From an uncultured Pelagibacteraceae bacterium (GTDB lineage Bacteria > Pseudomonadota > Alphaproteobacteria > Pelagibacterales > Pelagibacteraceae), in NCBI GenBank assembly GCA_902569975.1, contig CACFWD010000006.1:1-52958 (forward strand): 52,958 nucleotides of DNA, in the 5' to 3' direction. The notes beneath the pieces are model-generated. The model was given only the letters and a program-made list of their open reading frames with translations. It was not told the origin of the DNA and made no database searches. The position numbers and the translations under genes are program-made. Each line of letters begins with the position of its first letter. Position 1 is the stretch's first letter. Positions 10,899-42,126 of the stretch are shown one piece after another.

Positions 10899-10940
10899 TT
10901 AAGATCTGCTATATTGATCTAGATAGTCCTTCTTAGCCAT
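10899..10940 (-). CDS. Possible 13-residue leader peptide
   Basis: A reading frame of 13 codons (MAKKDYLDQYSRS) upstream of the DUF2805-type gene. It is preceded by GGGAG six bases before the ATG, a stronger ribosome site than most genes here have. Its first eight or so codons overlap the right arm and loop of the hairpin at 10922-10969. It may be a leader peptide, or the GGGAG may belong to a structured RNA element. Short frames occur by chance, so confidence is low. Confidence 0.3.
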   Translation of the reverse strand: MAKKDYLDQYSRS

Positions 10941-10969
10941 CTTTAGCTCCCGGTTTTTAAGGACTATCT
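10922..10969. other. Long hairpin element between the DUF2805 gene and the LysE relic
   Basis: A perfect 10-bp stem (GATAGTCCTT at 10922-10931 with AAGGACTATC at 10960-10969) encloses a 28-base loop. On the + strand the stem is followed by TTTTCTTTT and then, ten bases on, by the start of the decayed LysE gene, as expected of an attenuator or leader terminator. On the - strand the loop holds GGGAG and an ATG. It is G+C-richer than its surroundings and far from random in this AT-rich spacer. I do not recognise it as a known riboswitch. Confidence 0.5.
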
Positions 10970-10979
10970 TTTCTTTTAA

Positions 10980-11588
10980 ATGCTCTCCTTTGGATTTTAT
11001 CTTTTTTTAACAGATCATTTTTTTTCTATTTATCACTCCTGAAACAAAAAATAGTGATTTTTTTTATTGATTAAATTATGGTTAACAAAAATGTATTTGG
11101 ATAGCATTAGGAGATATTATGCCAAATGTTATATTTAACTATAGTAATATTTGTTTTGGGTAATTTTTTTTTTAGAAAATACAAATATTTAAAATATTTT
11201 AAATGGATAGGAGTAGTTTACTTACTTTATTTAGCATATGATATTTATATATCTGCACCTAAAGAATTCAGTTCAAAAATTTTATCCTCAAGAAGTTATG
11301 TTTTATTTTTTTAAGATAGTATTATAGTTGCAGGGACTAGTCCAAAAGCATGGTTGTTTTTCCTTTAATTTTTCAACAATTCATTGATTTTAACTAAAAT
11401 TATGTTGTCCAATTCATAATTTTGATAACAACTTACATTGTTTTAGACTTTTTATCATTGGTTGTTTATGCATTACTTGCTCGAAAATTAATTAATTGGA
11501 TTAATACAAACCCTACAGTAATTAATAGAATTTCTGCAGCTGCAATAATTTTCATATCAATGATAATTATTTTTACACATTGGTATTA
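10980..11588 (+). pseudogene. Decayed LysE/RhtB-family amino-acid exporter
   Basis: Three-frame reading recovers a whole LysE-type exporter in pieces over 203 codons, the family's usual length. ATG at 10980 gives MLSFGFYLFLTDHFF; a shift in a T-run leads to LFITPE (family motif ITPGP); then IALGDIMP (family GxALGD) in the same frame with in-frame stops; a second frame (11126-11314) gives YLKYFKWIGVVYLLYLAYD (family LKxxGxxYLLYLG); another gives AGTSPKAWLFFL (family NPKAWLFF); the last gives FQQFIDF then YALLARKLINW and a final transmembrane helix ending at 11588. At least four frame changes and several stops are needed. The 62-residue frame at 11126-11314 is only a fragment. Confidence 0.85.
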
Positions 11589-23243: not shown

Positions 23244-23283
23244 CCATTTAAGTTAATCTAATTTTATGTTAATAATAATATAT

Positions 23284-23441
23284 ACGGGAGAGACTACTTT
23301 TTGTAGCGCCGAAGGAGCAACCACCCAGGAATCTCTCAGGTAAAAAGGACCGTAAAATATTAACTCTGGAAAGAGATTTAGTTCTCGCCGAAGGAGCAAA
23401 ACTCTCAGGCAAATATACAGATGGGTATAAAGAGTTAATAT
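23284..23441 (+). ncRNA. Tandem glycine riboswitch upstream of gcvT
   Basis: Two glycine aptamers in series. Aptamer 1 (23284-23353): closing stem ACGG/CCGT, GGGAGAG, the core GCCGAAGGAGCAA and ATCTCTCAGGTAAAAAGGACC. Aptamer 2 (23357-23441): GGAAAGAG, a second GCCGAAGGAGCAAA and ACTCTCAGGCAAATATACAG. Only three bases separate them. The closing stem of aptamer 2 is an 11-bp perfect pairing of 23357-23367 with 23431-23441, which includes the first two bases of the gcvT ATG (23440-23442). No terminator stem and T-run is seen, so control is likely at translation. Confidence 0.95.
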
Positions 23442-24543
23442 GGAAATAAAAAAAACATCATTAAATAAACTTCACCAAGACAATAATGCTAAATTTGTTG
23501 AGTTTGCTGGATATGAAATGCCCATACAGTATAGCAAGGGTATAATCGAAGAGCATAAATTCACAAGATCACATTCAGGAATATTTGATGTATCTCATAT
23601 GGGCCAATTATTTATATATGGTGATGAGGGCTTAACAGAAGAGCTTGAAAAAATTTTTCCATTAGACTTAAAAAATCTAAAAATAAATTCCTCTAAATAT
23701 AGTTTTTTAATGAATGATGATGCTGGAATTTATGATGATTTAATTATTACAAAAATAGAGGAAGGTTTTTTGATTATATTGAATGCTGCATGCAAAGATA
23801 AAGATTTTGAGATTTTATCTAATTTATTGGAAAACAAATTTAAAATGAATTTAGAAAAAAATAGATCATTGATAGCAATTCAGGGACCTGAGTCAGTTAA
23901 AATTTTAAACTCAATTATAAATGGAGTTGATCAATTAAAATTTATGACAGGAAATTGGTTTGATACTGATAATCAAAAATTATTTGTTACAAGATCAGGT
24001 TATACAGGAGAAGATGGATTTGAAATTTCAATTTCTAATGACAAAGTTGAAAAATTTGTAGAAAATTTGATAGAAAAGGGAGCACAACTTATAGGACTTG
24101 GAGCAAGAGATACATTGAGATTGGAAGCTGGATTATGTTTATATGGTCACGAACTAGATATTAATAAAACACCAGTTGAAGCAAACCTTAGATGGGCAAT
24201 CTCAAAATCTAGATTATCAAATGGAGGTTTTATTGGATCAAAAAAAATTATGAAGCAAATGCAAAACGGTGCAAGTCAAATAAGAGTAGGTATCAAGCCA
24301 GAAGGTAGGTTGATTGCTAGAGAAAAAACTAAAATATTTGATGATACAGACACACAAATTGGTGAAATAACTAGTGGAACGTTTGGGCCAAGTGTAAATG
24401 GTCCTATAGCGATGGGTTATATTGATAAAGAGTTTTCGAAAATCGATACTAAAATTTTGCTTGAAGTAAGAGGAAAAAAATATTCAGCTTATGTTTGTGA
24501 ATTACCATTTTATAAAAAAAATTATGTGAAAGGAGTAAATTAA
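23440..24543 (+). CDS. gcvT: Glycine cleavage system T protein (aminomethyltransferase)
   Basis: Transfers the methylene group from the H-protein-bound aminomethyl to tetrahydrofolate, releasing ammonia. 367 residues with the normal start [20 protein letters not shown] then [50 protein letters not shown] and [19 protein letters not shown]. The start codon's first two bases pair inside the riboswitch. Overlaps gcvH by one base. Confidence 0.97.
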
Positions 24544-35396: not shown

Positions 35397-36596
35397 TTAT
35401 TTTTTCTTGTATTTGGCTGCTTCTTCAGACCCACCAGTGGCTGAACCTTTACTATATGAGTGAGCACCCATACCAGCTAATTGGCCATCTTTTACAATTA
35501 AGTATTGATTTCTAATTTCTTTACCTTCAAAGAAACATTCCAGTATCTCTCTAACTCCATCTGCATACCTTGATTGTGCAGTTAAAGATGTCCCTGAAGT
35601 ATGAGGTGTCATACCATGATTTGGCATGCTTCTCCATACGTGATCATTAGGCGCTGGCTGGGGAAACCAAACATCTCCTGCATAACCACTTAATTGACCA
35701 CTCTTTAATGCCTTAGCAATTGCATCACGATTACAGATTTTTCCTCTTGCGGTATTTACAATATAAGCACCTTTTTTCATCTTACTTATCATAGCATCAT
35801 CAAATAAGTTTTCAGTTTCTGGATGAAGAGGACAATTAATTGTCACTACATCACAAACTTTGACCATAGATTCTACAGACTCATGAAATGTAAGATTAAG
35901 TTCTTTTTCAACAGCGTCAGGTAATTTATGTCTATCAAAGTAATGCAAATGGACATCAAATGGTTTCATTTTTCTGAGTGCATCTAAACCAATTCGCCCA
36001 GCAGCAACTGTCCCAATATGCATGCCCTCTACATCGTATGATCTTTGAACAGCGTCAGCAATATTCCATCCACCTTCATTAACGATTCTATGTTGATTAT
36101 GGTAATCCCTTACCATTGAAACAATCATCATAACAATGTGTTCAGCTACCGATCTAGAGTTACAATAAGTTACCTCTACGACGTCAATTTTATTATCCAT
36201 TGCAGCTTGTAAATCGACGTGGTCTGACCCAATACCTGCTGTGATTGCCATTTTCAAATTTTTAGCTTTCGCAATTCTTTCTTTAGTTAAATAATATGGA
36301 AAGAAAGGTTGTGAAATTACTATATCAGCATCAACAATATGTTTGTCAGCCTCACATCCATCTCCATCTTTACTATTAGTTACAACCAACTCGTGACCGT
36401 TGTTTTCTAAAAATTTTCTTAGTCCTAATTCACCAGATACACATCCTAATAGTTGTCCTGGAGTATAATCTCTTCCTTTTGGTGAAGGTAAGGTCATTCC
36501 ATCTGGATATTTTTCTATTTTTGGTAATTCAGAAAGTGCATATGATTTTGGCATTCCACCTTTAGGATCATCATACAATATGCATAATATTTTCAT
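35397..36596 (-). CDS. fdh: NAD-dependent formate dehydrogenase (metal-free)
   Basis: Oxidises formate to CO2 with NAD, giving NADH and disposing of C1 units. 399 residues that agree closely with the known methylotroph enzyme: KILCILYDDPKGGMPKSYAL, the formate-loop SQPFFPYYLT, TAGIGSDHVDLQAAMD, the NAD motif GTVAAGRIGLDAL, NTARGKICNRDAI, DVWFPQPAPNDHVW and the catalytic-His HTSGTSLTAQ. It needs no molybdenum, so the moeA nearby must serve other enzymes. AGGAG lies upstream of the ATG. Signal-free, cytoplasmic. Confidence 0.96.
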   Translation of the reverse strand: MKILCILYDDPKGGMPKSYALSELPKIEKYPDGMTLPSPKGRDYTPGQLLGCVSGELGLRKFLENNGHELVVTNSKDGDGCEADKHIVDADIVISQPFFPYYLTKERIAKAKNLKMAITAGIGSDHVDLQAAMDNKIDVVEVTYCNSRSVAEHIVMMIVSMVRDYHNQHRIVNEGGWNIADAVQRSYDVEGMHIGTVAAGRIGLDALRKMKPFDVHLHYFDRHKLPDAVEKELNLTFHESVESMVKVCDVVTINCPLHPETENLFDDAMISKMKKGAYIVNTARGKICNRDAIAKALKSGQLSGYAGDVWFPQPAPNDHVWRSMPNHGMTPHTSGTSLTAQSRYADGVREILECFFEGKEIRNQYLIVKDGQLAGMGAHSYSKGSATGGSEEAAKYKKK

Positions 36597-36672
36597 TTAA
36601 TCTCCTAATTATAATTAATATTTATATACGGCATCTAACATTATTTTTTGGTACCTAGCAAATGAATTGTGT

Positions 36673-37149
36673 TTATTTTGGGTAAGACTTTTTTAAAATA
36701 AAACGGTTAATAACTATTGCAAAAATTATAATTATAATTGATCCAATTATTACAGGAGTAAATAAGTAGTCAAAGGATACGCTTCCTATAATTACTATTA
36801 TTGGATTTCCTCCCGCTGGAGGATGAGTGACATTAAGTAAAATCATTAAACCAACTCCAAAACCTACAGCTAAAGGAATAATTATATAAAGTGGTAATGG
36901 AATAAAGTTTAAAAAAAGCATTCCAACTAACGATGTAACTAAATGACCAAAAAAAACATTTTTTGGTTGAGCAAATGGGCTTTCTGGATACCCGTAAAGT
37001 AAAACCATTGATGAGCCAAAGGAAGCTAATAAAAATATTCCAAACTCAGTTTTATAGGTTAAAAAAGTTAATACCGCTATTGTAATTATAGAAAATAGAC
37101 CAGCAAAAATAGATTGTTTTAAATTTCCCATTAGATTATTTAGATACAA
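36673..37149 (-). CDS. HPP-family membrane protein
   Basis: 158 residues, four to five membrane helices. The HPP signature appears as LLNVTHPPAGGNPIIVIIG, together with ASFGSSMVLLYGYPESPFAQ and PKNVFFGHLVTSLVGMLF. Plant and cyanobacterial HPP members carry nitrite across membranes; for this one the substrate is unknown. The start overlaps the SufU-like gene by 14 bases; a second ATG at codon 7 (MGNLKQSI) would just about remove the overlap. Confidence 0.87.
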   Translation of the reverse strand: MYLNNLMGNLKQSIFAGLFSIITIAVLTFLTYKTEFGIFLLASFGSSMVLLYGYPESPFAQPKNVFFGHLVTSLVGMLFLNFIPLPLYIIIPLAVGFGVGLMILLNVTHPPAGGNPIIVIIGSVSFDYLFTPVIIGSIIIIIFAIVINRFILKKSYPK

Positions 37150-37534
37150 TTTTTTTTAATGCATTAAAAGGTAATAAAATACACTCTTTTCTAGCAATAT
37201 ATTTTTTTTTAAATAATATTTTCAATAATACCCATTTTTTTTCTTTTATCTCATTATCTTCATCAAAATAAGACTTAGCTTCCTCACACAAATTATAAAT
37301 TTTATCTTTTTGATTATTAATTGAGATTTTTGAGAGTAAGCTAGCAGATGCTTGACAAAAAATGCAGGACTTACCATTATATCCAAAATCAATTATTTTA
37401 TCATTTTTGATTATTAATTCTATTTTTAACTCATCTCCACATAAGGGATTTTTTAATTTAGAATAATGTGTACGATTCTTGATATTCTTATTATTATCAG
37501 TATTAGATGCGATATTAATTATTTCTAAATCCAT
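37136..37534 (-). CDS. SufU/IscU-like Fe-S scaffold protein
   Basis: 132 residues. The three ligand cysteines of the SufU/IscU fold are present: Cys32 in NPLCGDE (with Asp34), Cys57 in GKSCIFCQASAS (with Cys60) and Cys118 in ARKECILLPFNAL. It accepts sulfur or assembles Fe-S clusters, or passes zinc-bound persulfide as SufU does. No suf or isc operon is next to it; partner genes must lie elsewhere. Divergent from moeA. Confidence 0.85.
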   Translation of the reverse strand: MDLEIINIASNTDNNKNIKNRTHYSKLKNPLCGDELKIELIIKNDKIIDFGYNGKSCIFCQASASLLSKISINNQKDKIYNLCEEAKSYFDEDNEIKEKKWVLLKILFKKKYIARKECILLPFNALKKIVSK

Positions 37535-37554
37535 TTTAATTTATATGATATTTA

Positions 37555-37560
37555 TATAAT
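37555..37560 (+). promoter_or_regulatory. Predicted -10 box of moeA
   Basis: TATAAT six bases before the moeA ATG (37567), the same spacing as in front of the D-amino-acid dehydrogenase gene. Transcription would begin at or next to the start codon. The -35 is weak and no ribosome site is present. Confidence 0.35.
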
Positions 37561-37566
37561 AAATAA

Positions 37567-38814
37567 ATGAAATCTTATAGCCAAGCTGTAAATATTCTTA
37601 AAAGAGCTAAAATAATAATTGGTAACGAATATATAAAAAGCTCAGACAGTTTAAACAGAGTATGTGCGTCAAATATTCATTCAAAAGTCAATTATCCTTC
37701 TGCAAATAATTCTTCGTTTGATGGTTATGCGATTAATTCAAGAGATACTGAAAATTTGAATAAAAATAAATCTAAAGCTTTTAAAATAATAGGTTCTATT
37801 TCAGCAGGAAAAAAACCATTTAAAAAAAAAATTAAGAAATTTGATGCAGTTGAGATAATGACAGGTGGTATTATACCAAAAGGCCTTGATACGATTATTC
37901 CTATAGAACAAATAGACTTTTATCCAAATAATAAAATTAAAAAATTTATCTTAATTAAAAAAAAAATAAAAAAATATAATAATTTAAGGTTTGCAGGATC
38001 TGATTATAAAAAAGAGCAATTAATAATTAAAAAGGGAACAATTATTCAGTCTAAACATATGCTGGTTTTAAAAACATTAGGTGTGAAAAAAATTAAAGTT
38101 AAAAAAAAATTGAATATTTTATTTTTTTCAACTGGCAATGAAGTTTCTAACTTAGATAAAATCCCAATTTGGAAAGTAAGAAACTCAAATAGCCAATACA
38201 TAGAAAGTTTAAATAATAATTTTTTATTTAATTTTGAAAATGGAGGAATTTTAAAAGATCATCATCATCAATATTTTAAATCTAGAATTAATAAAATGTT
38301 AAAATCTAAAATAGATATAGTTATGACATCTGGAGCCGTCTCTGCTGGAAAATTTGATTATATACCTAGCATTGTTAAAGAATTTAAAACATCACATTAT
38401 TTTAAAAGTGTAATGATTAGACCTGGTAAACCAATTTTATTTGCAAAGATTAAGCAAAAAGCAATATTTGGTTTACCAGGAAATCCAATTTCATCTGCAG
38501 CTTGCTTCAGGTTTTTTGTTTATCCTTATATTGAAAATATATTAAATTTGACCCCCGAAAAGCCAATTAAGGCTATTTTAAAAAATAGCTATGAAAAAAA
38601 GAAAAATTTAACAAGATTTATTAAAAGTAAACTTAGCACAACTAAGAATGGTAAAGTCGAGGTGCAGTTATTGCCTGGCCAAGAGTCCTTTAGAATTAAC
38701 TCTTTTGTTAAATCAAATATATGGGCAGTACTACCAAATGGACAATCCAAATTTAAAAAAGGTCAAATTATTGATTGTTTTTTTCCCAACCTTTCAAATA
38801 AAATTTTAGATTAG
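37567..38814 (+). CDS. moeA: Molybdopterin molybdenumtransferase MoeA
   Basis: Inserts molybdate into adenylylated molybdopterin. 415 residues, with family motifs PSANNSSFDGYAINSRD near residue 45, EIMTGGIIPKGLDTIIPIEQ, STGNEV, TSGAVSAGKFDYIP (family TxGGVSxGxxD) and the GLPGNPISS end of the MPT-binding domain. Much of the sequence is lysine-rich with long KK runs, as expected for a very AT-rich gene. Implies at least one Mo enzyme in the organism, not encoded in this window. Confidence 0.93.
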   Translation: MKSYSQAVNILKRAKIIIGNEYIKSSDSLNRVCASNIHSKVNYPSANNSSFDGYAINSRDTENLNKNKSKAFKIIGSISAGKKPFKKKIKKFDAVEIMTGGIIPKGLDTIIPIEQIDFYPNNKIKKFILIKKKIKKYNNLRFAGSDYKKEQLIIKKGTIIQSKHMLVLKTLGVKKIKVKKKLNILFFSTGNEVSNLDKIPIWKVRNSNSQYIESLNNNFLFNFENGGILKDHHHQYFKSRINKMLKSKIDIVMTSGAVSAGKFDYIPSIVKEFKTSHYFKSVMIRPGKPILFAKIKQKAIFGLPGNPISSAACFRFFVYPYIENILNLTPEKPIKAILKNSYEKKKNLTRFIKSKLSTTKNGKVEVQLLPGQESFRINSFVKSNIWAVLPNGQSKFKKGQIIDCFFPNLSNKILD

Positions 38815-38862: not shown

Positions 38863-39768
38863 ATGCTTGAATTAAAAAATCCAAAAATAGCAGTTCCAGT
38901 AGTTCTATGTGCCGGTATTTTATGGTCATTCGGACCTTTGGTTGTCAGGTATATGGATAGTCCAAATCAGGTTCCTTGGCAGTATATTTTTGGGAGAGGG
39001 CTTACTATTTTTATTATTCTTAATCTTTATTTATATTTTGAAGAAGGAATTAAATTTTGGAAAAATTATTTAAAAATTGGAAAATCAGGAATTATTGGAG
39101 GCTCAGGTCTAGGTATTGCAATGATTTCTTTTATTTATTCAATTACAAATACCACAGCTGCCATTACTTTACTATGTTTGGCTGCAATGCCCTTTTTTAC
39201 TGCATTATTAGCTTTTATTTTTTTAAAGGAACAAATTTCTATTAATGTTTGGATATCAATTATTATTGCAACAGCAGGTATAATTATCATGGCTTTTGGA
39301 AATACAGAAGAAAATTCTCTTATAGGATTTATTTTTGGAATAACTTCTTCAGTAGGTTTCTCAATTTTTTCTGTTACTTTGAGATGGCGAAAGGAAACTC
39401 CTAAATTTACAACAGTCGCATTTGCTGGGTTATTTTGTTTTGTGTTTGCATCAATAATGATTTTAAGTAAAGAACAGGTTTTTTTTTCATCAAGTTATAA
39501 TAGTTCTTTATTTTCTTTACATGGAACATTGGTTTGTCTAGGTTTGATTCTATACTCGATTGGTTCAAAAGCTATTCCAGCTGCCGAATTAACTTTATTA
39601 TCTTTAACAGAGGTGATTGGTGGAATTTTTTGGGTGTGGTTACCTTTGTTTGGAATAAACGAGGTACCCGATACAAACACTATTATTGGCGGCTTCTTTT
39701 TATTTATATCTTTATTCTATTATAGTTTGATTATGAGATGGAATAAAAGGTACATTGGATTAAATTAA
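38863..39768 (+). CDS. EamA/DMT-family transporter (creatine module)
   Basis: 301 residues, two EamA repeats, about ten helices: AGILWSFGPLVVRYMDSP at the start, NTTAAITLLCLAAMPFFTAL, and the last repeat with LLSLTEVIGGIFWVWLPLFG. It precedes the creatinase gene by 16 bases on the same strand, so it may carry creatine, a related guanidino compound or a product such as urea or sarcosine; direction and substrate unproven. Confidence 0.87.
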   Translation: MLELKNPKIAVPVVLCAGILWSFGPLVVRYMDSPNQVPWQYIFGRGLTIFIILNLYLYFEEGIKFWKNYLKIGKSGIIGGSGLGIAMISFIYSITNTTAAITLLCLAAMPFFTALLAFIFLKEQISINVWISIIIATAGIIIMAFGNTEENSLIGFIFGITSSVGFSIFSVTLRWRKETPKFTTVAFAGLFCFVFASIMILSKEQVFFSSSYNSSLFSLHGTLVCLGLILYSIGSKAIPAAELTLLSLTEVIGGIFWVWLPLFGINEVPDTNTIIGGFFLFISLFYYSLIMRWNKRYIGLN

Positions 39769-39784
39769 TTTCTCGGAAAATAAA

Positions 39785-41002
39785 ATGGAAAGACCAGATT
39801 TTTTTGAATTAAAAAATGGAGAAAAGGTTAAACTGCCTTTTTCCAATAAAGAATATGATCAAAGAATTTTAAAATTAAGAGATGTAATGGATAAAAATAA
39901 TCTTGATATGATTATTTTAACCTCAATGCATAATATTGCTTATTATACAGGCTTTATCTATTGTTCATTTGGAAGACCTTACGGCTGTATTATAACCAAA
40001 AATAAAATCTCAACATTTTCAGCAAATATTGATGCTAGTCAGCCATGGAGAAGATCTTATTGTGATAATGTAATTTACACTGATTGGAAAAGAGATAATT
40101 TTTTAAAAGCGATTGTTTCTATTATTGGAAGAGATGAACCTCCAAAAAATATTGGGCTTGAATATGATCATGTAACTTTAGATATAAGAGAAAAAATTGG
40201 CTCTATATTTACATTTTCTGTGTTTAGAGATGTTGCAAAAAATTTAATGAAATTACGAATGATTAAATCAAATGAGGAAATTGAAATTATTAAAAATGGA
40301 GCAAGAATTGCTGATCTTGGAGGAATGGAAATTGTCAAAAATATTAAAGAGGGAAATACAGAATTAGAAATTGCAATTGCTGGTAGAGATTGTATGGAGA
40401 GAGAAATCGCAAAAACTTATCCAGGTGCAGAATATATGGATACTTGGGTTTGGTTTCAATCTGGAATAAACACTGATGGAGCCCATAATCCAAAAACAAA
40501 TCGACAAATCCAAAAAGGGGATATTTTATCTTTGAATACCTTTCCAATGATTTCAGGATATTACACTGCACTTGAAAGAACTTTATTTTTAGATCATGCA
40601 GACGATGCATCATTAAAAGCCTGGGAAGCAAACGTAAAAATTCATAAGCGTGGATTAGAATTAATAAGACCAGGTATGAAATGTTCTGACATATGCCATG
40701 AACTTAATGAGTTGTTTGCTGAACTTGGTTATCTTCAATATCGAACTTTTGGTTATGGTCATTCATTTGGAGTTCTTTCACATTTTTATGGAAGAGAGTC
40801 AGGATTAGAATTAAGAGAAGATATTGAAACTGTTTTAGAGGAAAATATGGTAGTTTCTATGGAGCCGATGATTATGATCCCAGAGGGAAAACCAGGAGCA
40901 GGTGGTTACAGAGAACACGATATCTTAGTGTTAGGGAAGAGTACTACAGAAAATATTACAAAATTTCCTTTTGGCCCTGAACACAATATTATAAAAACAT
41001 GA
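39785..41002 (+). CDS. Creatinase (creatine amidinohydrolase)
   Basis: Hydrolyses creatine to sarcosine and urea. The 405-residue sequence is a pita-bread (M24) fold protein closely like the Pseudomonas enzyme: YCSFGRPYGCII with Arg64, ANIDASQPWRR, NVIYTDWKRDN, MDTWVWFQSGINTDGAHNP with the catalytic His234 (His232 in P. putida), ISGYYTALERTLFLDH with Glu264, GYGHSFGVLSH and MVVSMEPMIMIPEG. The metal-binding residues of M24 peptidases are replaced as in creatinase, so it is not an aminopeptidase. Substrate may be creatine or the close analogue guanidinoacetate. Overlaps the amidinotransferase gene by 4 bases. Confidence 0.9.
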   Translation: MERPDFFELKNGEKVKLPFSNKEYDQRILKLRDVMDKNNLDMIILTSMHNIAYYTGFIYCSFGRPYGCIITKNKISTFSANIDASQPWRRSYCDNVIYTDWKRDNFLKAIVSIIGRDEPPKNIGLEYDHVTLDIREKIGSIFTFSVFRDVAKNLMKLRMIKSNEEIEIIKNGARIADLGGMEIVKNIKEGNTELEIAIAGRDCMEREIAKTYPGAEYMDTWVWFQSGINTDGAHNPKTNRQIQKGDILSLNTFPMISGYYTALERTLFLDHADDASLKAWEANVKIHKRGLELIRPGMKCSDICHELNELFAELGYLQYRTFGYGHSFGVLSHFYGRESGLELREDIETVLEENMVVSMEPMIMIPEGKPGAGGYREHDILVLGKSTTENITKFPFGPEHNIIKT

Positions 41003-42126
41003 CTGAAATGATTAAAAATAAAACAATTGTTAATAGTTGGAATGAATGGGACCCTCTTAAACACGTAATTGTAGGAAGGGCGGATGGAACCTGTATTCCT
41101 TCTCCAGAGCCTGCTTTAGATGCTAAAGTTCCTGAAGATAGTGATATGAGAGGCCAGTTTGGTCCTCGGACACAAGAAACTATTGATAAGGCCAATCAGC
41201 TATTAGATGATTTTTCGTATACGCTTGAGAAAAGAGGAATTAAAGTAGATAGACCAACACCAATTAATTTTAATCAAAAAACCTCTACTCCAGATTGGGA
41301 AGCAGAGACCATGTTTGGATGTATGCCACCCAGAGACGTTTTGTTAACTGTTGGTAATGAAATATTGGAGGCGACCATGAGTTATCGTTGTAGATGGTTT
41401 GAATACTTATGTTATCGCCCATTATTAAAAAATTATTATAATCAAGATTCTAATATGAGACATGAGTCAGCACCAAAACCTAGATTAACAGATGCAGATT
41501 ATAGAAAAGATTATCTCTCAGATAAAATTGGTGTTCAAAAAAGGTTAGAATGGACTGAGCAAAAATATTTTGTAACTACAGAGGAAGAACCATTATTTGA
41601 CGCTGCAGATGTTTTGAGATTTGGCAAAGATTTAGTTGTTCAACATGGATTTACAACAAATTTGAAAGGTATAGATTGGTTGAAGAGACATTATAAAGAT
41701 CACAGAATTCATGCTGTAAATTTCCCAGGAGATCCATATCCTATTCATATAGATGCAACTTTTACTCCAATTAAAGAAGGTTTAATAATAAATAATCCTC
41801 AAAGAAGATTGCCAAAAGAACAGAGAAAACTATTTGAAAATAATGGTTGGGAAATTGTAGATAGTGCACAACCTGCTCATAATGAACCTCCAGCACTTTG
41901 TTATTCATCTGTTTGGCTATCAATGAATGTTTTAGTGATTGATCCTAAAACAGTTTGTGTTGAAAAAAGCGAAGTCTATCAAGCAGATCAATTAGATAAA
42001 TTAGGCATGGAAGTCATACCTGTAGATTTAAGAGATGCATATGCATTTGGTGGAGGACTTCATTGTTGCACAGCAGATGTTTATAGAGAGGGTACCTTAA
42101 AAGATTATTTTCCTAAACAATTGTAA
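40999..42126 (+). CDS. Glycine amidinotransferase-like enzyme
   Basis: Transfers the amidino group of arginine to an amine, classically glycine, giving ornithine and guanidinoacetate. 375 residues, clearly AGAT-like: LFDAADVLRFGKDLVVQ with the catalytic Asp, PIHIDATFTPI with His250, SMNVLVIDPKTVCV, and GGGLHCCTADVYREGTLKDY with catalytic Cys356. As I recall human AGAT, a Met precedes the catalytic His; here it is Ile249, which may shift acceptor choice. No transit or signal peptide. Translationally coupled to creatinase, a pairing discussed in the findings. Confidence 0.9.
   Translation: MTEMIKNKTIVNSWNEWDPLKHVIVGRADGTCIPSPEPALDAKVPEDSDMRGQFGPRTQETIDKANQLLDDFSYTLEKRGIKVDRPTPINFNQKTSTPDWEAETMFGCMPPRDVLLTVGNEILEATMSYRCRWFEYLCYRPLLKNYYNQDSNMRHESAPKPRLTDADYRKDYLSDKIGVQKRLEWTEQKYFVTTEEEPLFDAADVLRFGKDLVVQHGFTTNLKGIDWLKRHYKDHRIHAVNFPGDPYPIHIDATFTPIKEGLIINNPQRRLPKEQRKLFENNGWEIVDSAQPAHNEPPALCYSSVWLSMNVLVIDPKTVCVEKSEVYQADQLDKLGMEVIPVDLRDAYAFGGGLHCCTADVYREGTLKDYFPKQL

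Follow-up and report, generated by a model that had tools for sequence, protein, structure and literature searches.

Amidinotransferases are reversible enzymes, and guanidinoacetate is accepted as a donor by both human arginine:glycine amidinotransferase (AGAT) and its prokaryotic counterpart CyrA, according to the available part of PMC4887976. The flaps compared there read D-P-N-P-M in human AGAT, D-M-H-P-M in AmtA and D-I-F-P-S in CyrA, and AmtA is described in the same part as accepting neither glycine nor guanidinoacetate. On the degradative side, SAR11 genes leading from creatine to glycine have already been noted (available text of PMC3686209), and creatine per carbon is given as higher in the field than in cultures (available text of PMC8269262). 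For guanidinase no activity on creatine is reported, and guanidinoacetate is outside the test substrates listed, in the accessible portion of PMC11410670. In the literature searched we found nothing joining SAR11 with amidinotransferase and nothing joining glycine amidinotransferase, marine bacteria and guanidinoacetate; no measurement of guanidinoacetate in seawater is evident from titles among the matches listed.

The window, by which we mean the whole stretch of 52,958 nucleotides analysed here, comes from an uncultured Pelagibacteraceae genome that is about 62% complete. The features discussed below are as follows.

23275..23362, plus strand: glycine riboswitch 5′ of gcvT (RF00504, 65.3 bits)
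23440-24543: gcvT (475.3 bits, cut-off 459)
35397..36596, minus strand: NAD-dependent formate dehydrogenase (NF005750, 662.6 bits, cut-off 329)
37567..38814, plus strand: moeA (molybdopterin molybdotransferase), co-directional and ending 48 bases 5′ of the DMT gene
38863..39768, plus strand: EamA/DMT-family transporter gene, an ORF heading the operon (PF00892, 62.9 bits)
39785..41002, plus strand: putative creatinase (creatine amidinohydrolase, M24 fold), an ORF with PDB matches; accessory gene
40999..42126, plus strand: AGAT homologue, an ORF matching human AGAT, with the 300-flap D-P-Y-P-I; near-core gene

The DMT, creatinase and AGAT genes are three tightly spaced ORFs on the plus strand. 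The creatinase stop overlaps the listed AGAT start as ATGA. Translational coupling of these two genes, proposed in the sequence-only reading, is likely, and the exact overlap hangs on the start chosen, because relatives begin AGAT a few codons downstream of the listed position. None of the three proteins passes a curated NCBIfam cut-off, so that their names rest on Pfam and PDB matches. There is no methyltransferase gene between the operon genes, as had been stated earlier, and none was named among the neighbours searched with NCBIfam and Pfam. The gene 3′ of AGAT in the window is of a surface-polysaccharide type. At the other end moeA, which precedes the DMT gene in several relatives too, is context and is not counted into the pathway proposed below.

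The creatinase matches two creatine amidinohydrolases over nearly their full length, PDB 1chm (526.9 bits) and 7yto (528.2 bits), and its domains PF01321 (Creatinase_N, 49.9 bits) and PF00557 (M24, 112.8 bits) are over their cut-offs. F62, R64, H234, Y260, E264, R337 and E360 are all identical to Phe62, Arg64, His232, Tyr258, Glu262, Arg335 and Glu358 of 1chm, which we take to be the residues of the active site. It is thus a putative enzyme of EC 3.5.3.3, converting creatine into sarcosine and urea. It differs from the known creatinases in sharing an operon with a DMT transporter and an amidinotransferase.

The AGAT homologue aligns best with human AGAT (1jdx, 289.4 bits), followed by SxtG (224.4), HsvA (204.9) and StrB1 (177.4). 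D113, D201, H250 and D252 correspond to human D170, D254, H303 and D305, and R269, S303, S304 and C356 to R322, S354, S355 and C407. The catalytic Asp, His and Cys (human Asp254, His303 and Cys407, plus Asp170) are kept in the window protein and throughout the 177 rows of at least 60% identity, which are not all distinct. Asp305, Arg322 and Ser355, presumably the arginine/ornithine site, are retained in 165/165 distinct close sequences. The rows below 60% identity, tallied separately, number nine (six distinct), and three of the six have lost the Arg322 equivalent.

The flap is where the proteins part. Whereas the vertebrate type has Asn300 and Met302, the window protein has Tyr and Ile, and D-P-Y-P-I is identical to none of the human, AmtA and CyrA flaps. 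The mismatch counts against a vertebrate type and not against the reaction, because CyrA, a glycine enzyme, also lacks Asn300 and Met302. CyrA and AoaA, prokaryotic arginine:glycine amidinotransferases of the same proposed reaction class, can be likened to the window protein through their published flap residues: they share an aromatic residue at the Asn300 position, Phe in their case, but belong to toxin biosynthesis and have Ser in place of the window's Ile at the Met302 position (PMC4887976 and PMC3684758, from the available parts). Tyr and Ile are found in 162/165 distinct sequences of the clade, and together with the invariant arginine-site residues this suggests one conserved substrate pair. 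Amidino transfer linking arginine and glycine is predicted for the window protein, which we hence call a homologue; it shares with human AGAT the catalytic and presumed arginine-site residues, while differing in its flap, in having a creatinase neighbour and in having no methyltransferase gene in its operon.

Among 150 genomes AGAT is found in 116 (E ≤ 0.001) and creatinase in 28 (E ≤ 1e-60). A family known chiefly from the synthesis of creatine and toxins is thus near-core in a group of streamlined marine bacteria, and the creatinase is an accessory gene. All 28 occurrences are in AGAT genomes, leaving 88/116 with no creatinase match, and therefore the general role of AGAT does not need creatinase; an essential partnership of the two is ruled out by these counts. 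Where creatinase is present in the family of the window it is directly 5′ of AGAT in 27/27 genomes (our own included), with the two matches no more than 14 bases apart on one strand. The naming of the three genes and their pairing in one operon in the sequence-only reading hold, as does its theme of a guanidine economy. The DMT gene is directly 5′ of AGAT in 43/71 genomes of the genus and 5′ of creatinase-AGAT in 27/71, together 70/71, and the 71st locus begins within creatinase at a contig end; this census leaves out AGATs of other type (L064, L065, L066) and partial ones. Divergence of the creatinase tracks that of AGAT (Mantel r 0.79 over 28 loci, with 0/2000 permutations as high); the co-divergence analysis took in 71 loci, and a separate tree the 51 loci with a long DMT.

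Members of this AGAT clade are also found in SAR116 and roseobacters, and the window protein is 81% identical to that of G524, a SAR116-type genome. In this clade 80 named loci were taken and one (L224) was dropped as it had no AGAT ORF. In 10 of the remaining 79 a creatinase of at least 50% identity is within three genes of AGAT, arranged divergently in L179 and L180 (SAR116 and Puniceispirillum) and facing AGAT in the other eight. The other 69 have none within three genes, a count that may miss neighbours because a simple ORF caller was used in GC-rich loci and a number of loci are cut off by the end of a contig. The SAR11 rows of the creatinase tree, thinned to 14, form one clade (support 100) separate from the SAR116 and roseobacter rows, and therefore the neighbourhood has formed more than once. 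That tree includes G524 twice, leaves out the shorter L180 sequence and a second-family creatinase of G093, and places the long-branched L207 unsurely. Chance adjacency of creatinase and AGAT is ruled out by the 27/27 pairing, the recurrence in other lineages and the tree. The repeated formation of this neighbourhood points to guanidinoacetate and creatine as the shared chemistry. Elsewhere the neighbours of AGAT outside the family vary (serC-serA, eutABC-like genes, an FAD hydroxylase), and include ectoine-type genes in some loci and agmatinase/guanidinobutyrase-like genes in others. In viral contigs, single-protein queries, whose reach is close relatives only, found no relative of AGAT or of creatinase. 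AGATs on Photobacterium and Streptomyces plasmid records are 55.3% and 52.6% identical, on unannotated records where the neighbours are uninformative.

We propose, with nearly as much credence as doubt, that the operon salvages small guanidino acids, guanidinoacetate and creatine, for glycine and nitrogen, and does not replace arginase. The DMT protein would carry guanidinoacetate, creatine or both, probably inwards. AGAT, as the core enzyme, would transfer the amidino group from guanidinoacetate to ornithine, giving arginine and glycine without release of urea. AGAT is not expected to act on creatine; creatinase, where present, would convert it to sarcosine and urea, and enzymes of sarcosine/dimethylglycine-dehydrogenase type, which these genomes encode, could take the sarcosine on to glycine. 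In favour of salvage are the conserved gene order, the co-divergence of creatinase and AGAT, the reversibility of amidinotransferases and the field values for creatine. Weighed against this proposal are the flap unlike those compared, the 69/79 loci with no near creatinase, the varied neighbourhoods and the 16 loci with no riboswitch (below). If salvage is correct, it would tie nitrogen of animal origin to the supply of glycine in bacterioplankton, a proposal open to testing in cultured SAR11 and roseobacters. A broader and more doubtful suggestion is that a dedicated AGAT clade, common to SAR11, SAR116 and roseobacters, runs backwards in catabolism, turning guanidinoacetate (and creatine by way of creatinase) into glycine and ready-made arginine with no nitrogen lost as urea. 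The remains of animal phosphagens would then be salvaged, and ocean bacteria of very high abundance would have a means of bypassing their dependence on glycine.

The sequence-only reading had offered a creatinase on imported creatine with AGAT running from guanidinoacetate to arginine as its second option, and this fits the comparative data better than its first, although substrates and direction are inferred. The first was an arginase-like cycle: AGAT would convert arginine and glycine to ornithine and guanidinoacetate, and creatinase would split the latter into urea and glycine, the net result being arginine to ornithine plus urea. A ureohydrolase could also take the place of creatinase here. 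The conserved creatinase-AGAT pairing is in its favour. So are the arginase/agmatinase-family ureohydrolases present in 117/150 genomes, and the agmatinase-type ureohydrolase gene adjoining AGAT in four loci (L195, L207, L217 and L245), the position to be expected of an alternative hydrolase. In L207, L217 and L245 an ABC importer is close by, an arrangement that we count in favour of salvage. Yet most AGAT genomes have no creatinase match, the creatinase site residues are those of the creatine enzyme with no change hinting at an unmethylated substrate, and forward AGAT would use up glycine as carrier in a cell presumed, as in the sequence-only reading, to be glycine-dependent. Strong urease matches, moreover, are found in 20/150 genomes, counting E < 1e-50 over 120 of the 121 positions of PF00449, and therefore urea would mostly be waste. 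PF00449 matches 55 genomes in all, 49 over its cut-off; the remaining matches, with E above 1e-8, cover 35-54 positions, lie for the most part in frames of about 440 residues and are probably other amidohydrolases. Two SAR11 strains are described as having no urease, with urea from agmatine speculated to be inhibitory (available part of PMC8437039). We consider the arginase-like cycle quite improbable; the claim that the cell manages without arginase is unsafe, because of the 117 genomes with ureohydrolase and two such matches in the window's own genome. One of these gives 264.8 bits to 3nio and 275.5 bits to 3nip (guanidinobutyrase/3-guanidinopropionase), but is encoded outside the operon; ureohydrolase genes adjoin AGAT only in other lineages.

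Another substrate pair for AGAT is possible, because its flap matches none of those compared and AmtA rejects glycine and guanidinoacetate. An acceptor or donor such as beta-alanine, 4-aminobutyrate, taurine or lysine would then serve the making or breakdown of a different guanidino solute, with creatinase handling a co-occurring compound. The ectoine-type and agmatinase/guanidinobutyrase-like neighbours are consistent with this, but the creatinase neighbourhood having arisen more than once favours guanidinoacetate, and CyrA too is aromatic at the Asn300 position; on balance we think it unlikely. It might also be that AGAT and creatinase serve unconnected functions and have a transporter and promoter in common. 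AGAT would then run forward, its final product guanidinoacetate being exported or retained as a solute, and creatinase would independently degrade imported creatine. DMT proteins can work as exporters, and most relatives have AGAT without creatinase. The co-divergence of the two enzymes, though close linkage alone could give that, and the recurrent neighbourhood in other lineages argue for linked substrates, making unconnected functions improbable in our view.

Returning to salvage, relatives offer a further glycine-yielding step that may belong with it. A threonine aldolase gene is directly 3′ of AGAT in 31/32 genomes of the window's family that possess one, with 361.6 bits to 1v72 and 346.7 bits to 7yvr, both L-threonine aldolases; it is absent from the window and was not found in the roughly 62% of its genome available. 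In 16 hand-picked genomes FAO_M proteins occur in 14/14 with AGAT and in 0/2 that have neither AGAT nor creatinase. No glycine riboswitch is present at the operon, and none reaches the gathering threshold across 16 loci, where one tRNA is the only match. The sole glycine riboswitch in the window precedes gcvT, a sign of glycine control within the same window that is not attached to the operon. The formate dehydrogenase recurs as a neighbour in relatives, where it provides context as a C1 sink.

The same AGAT family is present in many other marine alphaproteobacteria, part of them with creatinase or ureohydrolase neighbours.

Three ORFs follow one another closely on the plus strand of the window, and the ORFs, structure matches and site residues together confirm the single operon of transporter, creatinase and amidinotransferase that the sequence-only reading had described.

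Genes of the operon
38863-39768, plus strand: EamA/DMT-family transporter (DMT), from the ORF and a Pfam match
39785-41002, plus strand: creatinase, from the ORF and a match to solved creatine amidinohydrolases
40999-42126, plus strand: arginine:glycine amidinotransferase (AGAT) homologue, from the ORF and the closest solved structure, human AGAT

Both enzymes are members of known families. Three solved creatine amidinohydrolases align with the creatinase almost end to end, at 500 to 528 bits, with the best prolidase match reaching only 96.6 bits. On alignment the creatinase retains all the residues of the creatinase site. Human AGAT is the solved structure nearest to the amidinotransferase (289.4 bits). 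The catalytic residues are conserved in every close row of the alignment, and those of the arginine site in 165 of 165 distinct close AGAT sequences.

AGAT is present in 116 of the 150 genomes compared, own genome included (E <= 0.001), and creatinase in 28 (E <= 1e-60), with many of these genomes incomplete, so that absences weigh less than presences; among the 33 of at least 90% completeness the counts are 26 and 4. Every genome with creatinase also has AGAT. The window's own genome, from a group of small genomes, comprises 863 kb in 28 contigs and is about 62% complete; its gene content is consistent with the probable SAR11 assignment of the sequence-only reading. In the window's family, creatinase lies directly before AGAT in all 27 creatinase genomes, the matches being no more than 14 bases apart. 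The one remaining creatinase genome, G093, belongs to a second family and has the two genes on different contigs. A census of the genus (71 genomes) gave DMT-AGAT in 43 and DMT-creatinase-AGAT in 27, the one remaining locus starting inside creatinase at a contig end. The creatinase state changes six times on the AGAT tree of these 71 loci, and creatinase divergence tracks that of AGAT over 28 loci (Mantel r 0.79). Thus DMT-AGAT forms the core, and creatinase is gained or lost at a single fixed position. Threonine aldolase, found in 32 family genomes, directly follows AGAT in 31; in the window a surface-polysaccharide-type gene takes its place.

An even sample of the class contains AGAT in 12 of 385 genomes (E <= 1e-25) and creatinase in 45 (E <= 1e-80). 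The genus of the window accounts for three of the twelve; a further five are close (61-81%) and the other four distant (32-38%). Creatinase accompanies AGAT in four of the five close genomes, which represent two genera and hence not four independent cases, and in one of the distant four. Scanning of named genomes turned up at least 566 relatives; the 80 loci retained include SAR116, Puniceispirillum, Octadecabacter, Roseovarius, Phaeobacter, Leisingera and Planktomarina. Creatinase (at least 50% identity) lies within three genes of AGAT in 10 of the 79 usable loci, divergent from it in L179 and L180, as in the SAR116-type genome G524, and facing it in the other eight, Shimia and Tropicibacter among them. 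At loci L253 and L254 one or two small genes separate the pair. In the creatinase tree the SAR11 rows form a single clade (support 100). A second clade unites the SAR116 rows with the roseobacter-type rows, one excepted, and also holds creatinases from genomes lacking AGAT. The creatinase of locus L207 falls elsewhere, on a long branch of unsure position. With separate clades near AGAT, the neighbourhood has arisen on two or more occasions, perhaps three.

Other families also adjoin AGAT, 23 of the named loci showing a searched-for family within six genes and at least 56 of 79 showing none. At L207, L217 and L245 the neighbour is an agmatinase-type ureohydrolase, with an ABC importer (ATPase, binding protein, permeases) nearby; L195 has a different ureohydrolase with EutA- and DoeA-like genes. 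In genome G304 eutA-, eutB- and eutC-like genes follow AGAT, only the last exceeding its model cut-off, and in a second-family genus a DoeA-like gene does so (444 bits against a cut-off of 613). AGAT precedes serC and a serA-like gene in genome G431. In loci L064 and L065 the AGAT is of a different type (about 75%) and stands beside DMT, 2OG-oxygenase and luciferase-like monooxygenase genes. The same set recurs in L262 and L263, with a guanidinopropionase-like ureohydrolase near the cluster in place of AGAT, and the two enzymes look interchangeable there.

The likeliest role of the operon, tentatively held from sequence comparison, is guanidino-acid salvage. Breakdown is favoured because creatinase or ureohydrolase neighbours occur in several lineages, the transporter gene is conserved and glycine-yielding enzymes share the operon. 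Running in this direction, AGAT would yield arginine and glycine and consume only ornithine; amidinotransferases are reversible, and human AGAT and CyrA accept guanidinoacetate as donor (PMC4887976). Proteins of the FAO_M (sarcosine/dimethylglycine dehydrogenase) family occur in 14 of 16 hand-picked genomes, the other two also lacking AGAT and creatinase. Use of another acceptor by AGAT is rather unlikely. The acceptor flap reads D-P-Y-P-I in the window's clade, with Tyr and Ile in 162 of the 165 sequences, whereas it is D-P-N-P-M in human AGAT, D-M-H-P-M in the lysine enzyme AmtA and D-I-F-P-S in the strict glycine enzyme CyrA (PMC4887976). AmtA is reported there to accept neither glycine nor guanidinoacetate, so the substrate cannot be read from membership of the family. 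It is improbable that AGAT and creatinase serve unconnected functions.

The unusual guanidine economy proposed from the sequence finds partial support, in its salvage form; its arginase-like cycle, turning arginine into ornithine and urea, we consider as improbable as unconnected functions. That cycle would make urea, for which a strong urease match is found in only 20 of the 150 genomes, including three of the 28 creatinase genomes. According to PMC8437039, urease is absent from two SAR11 strains, and agmatine held back growth when nitrogen was limiting, an effect for which urea was suspected; the legend to its Figure 1 gives speB1 as arginase. Two ureohydrolase-family matches occur in the window's own genome; one of them exceeds the agmatinase cut-off and is nearest to 3-guanidinopropionase and guanidinobutyrase. 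Arginase can therefore not be assumed to be absent, and describing the route as one without arginase would be unsafe.

A 2013 metagenome study counts a SAR11 creatinase among the core genes of one subgroup and mentions conversion of creatine to glycine (PMC3686209). Our literature search joining SAR11 with amidinotransferase found no report. Within reach of these searches, the marine AGAT clade and its near-core status are new, as are its fixed place behind the DMT gene and the recurring link to creatinase.

AGAT also appears in other settings. In L099 (9283-16836), from a small alphaproteobacterial genome, it heads a hydroxyectoine-type cluster (eutA-, eutB-, eutC-like, amidohydrolase, M24). 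A distant AGAT-like gene (about 31%) in L081 (9092-10270) has neighbours resembling nonulosonic-acid synthesis, named from their starts by inspection, and would perhaps direct amidino modification of a surface sugar. Phage records H16-H25, the best 10 of 15, hold AGAT-like genes of 22-27% identity, with Campylobacter, Enterococcus and Synechococcus phages among the matches listed.

Elsewhere in the window a glycine riboswitch (23275-23362, 65.3 bits) precedes gcvT, with further co-directional genes after it, and an rhtB sRNA Rfam match lies at 10904-10986 (83 bits). At 35397-38814 moeA stands next to an NAD-dependent formate dehydrogenase, a pairing that is kept. L079, L080 and L101 have other genes at this site, by inspection an fds-type formate dehydrogenase, and a swap of formate dehydrogenase type beside moeA is possible.
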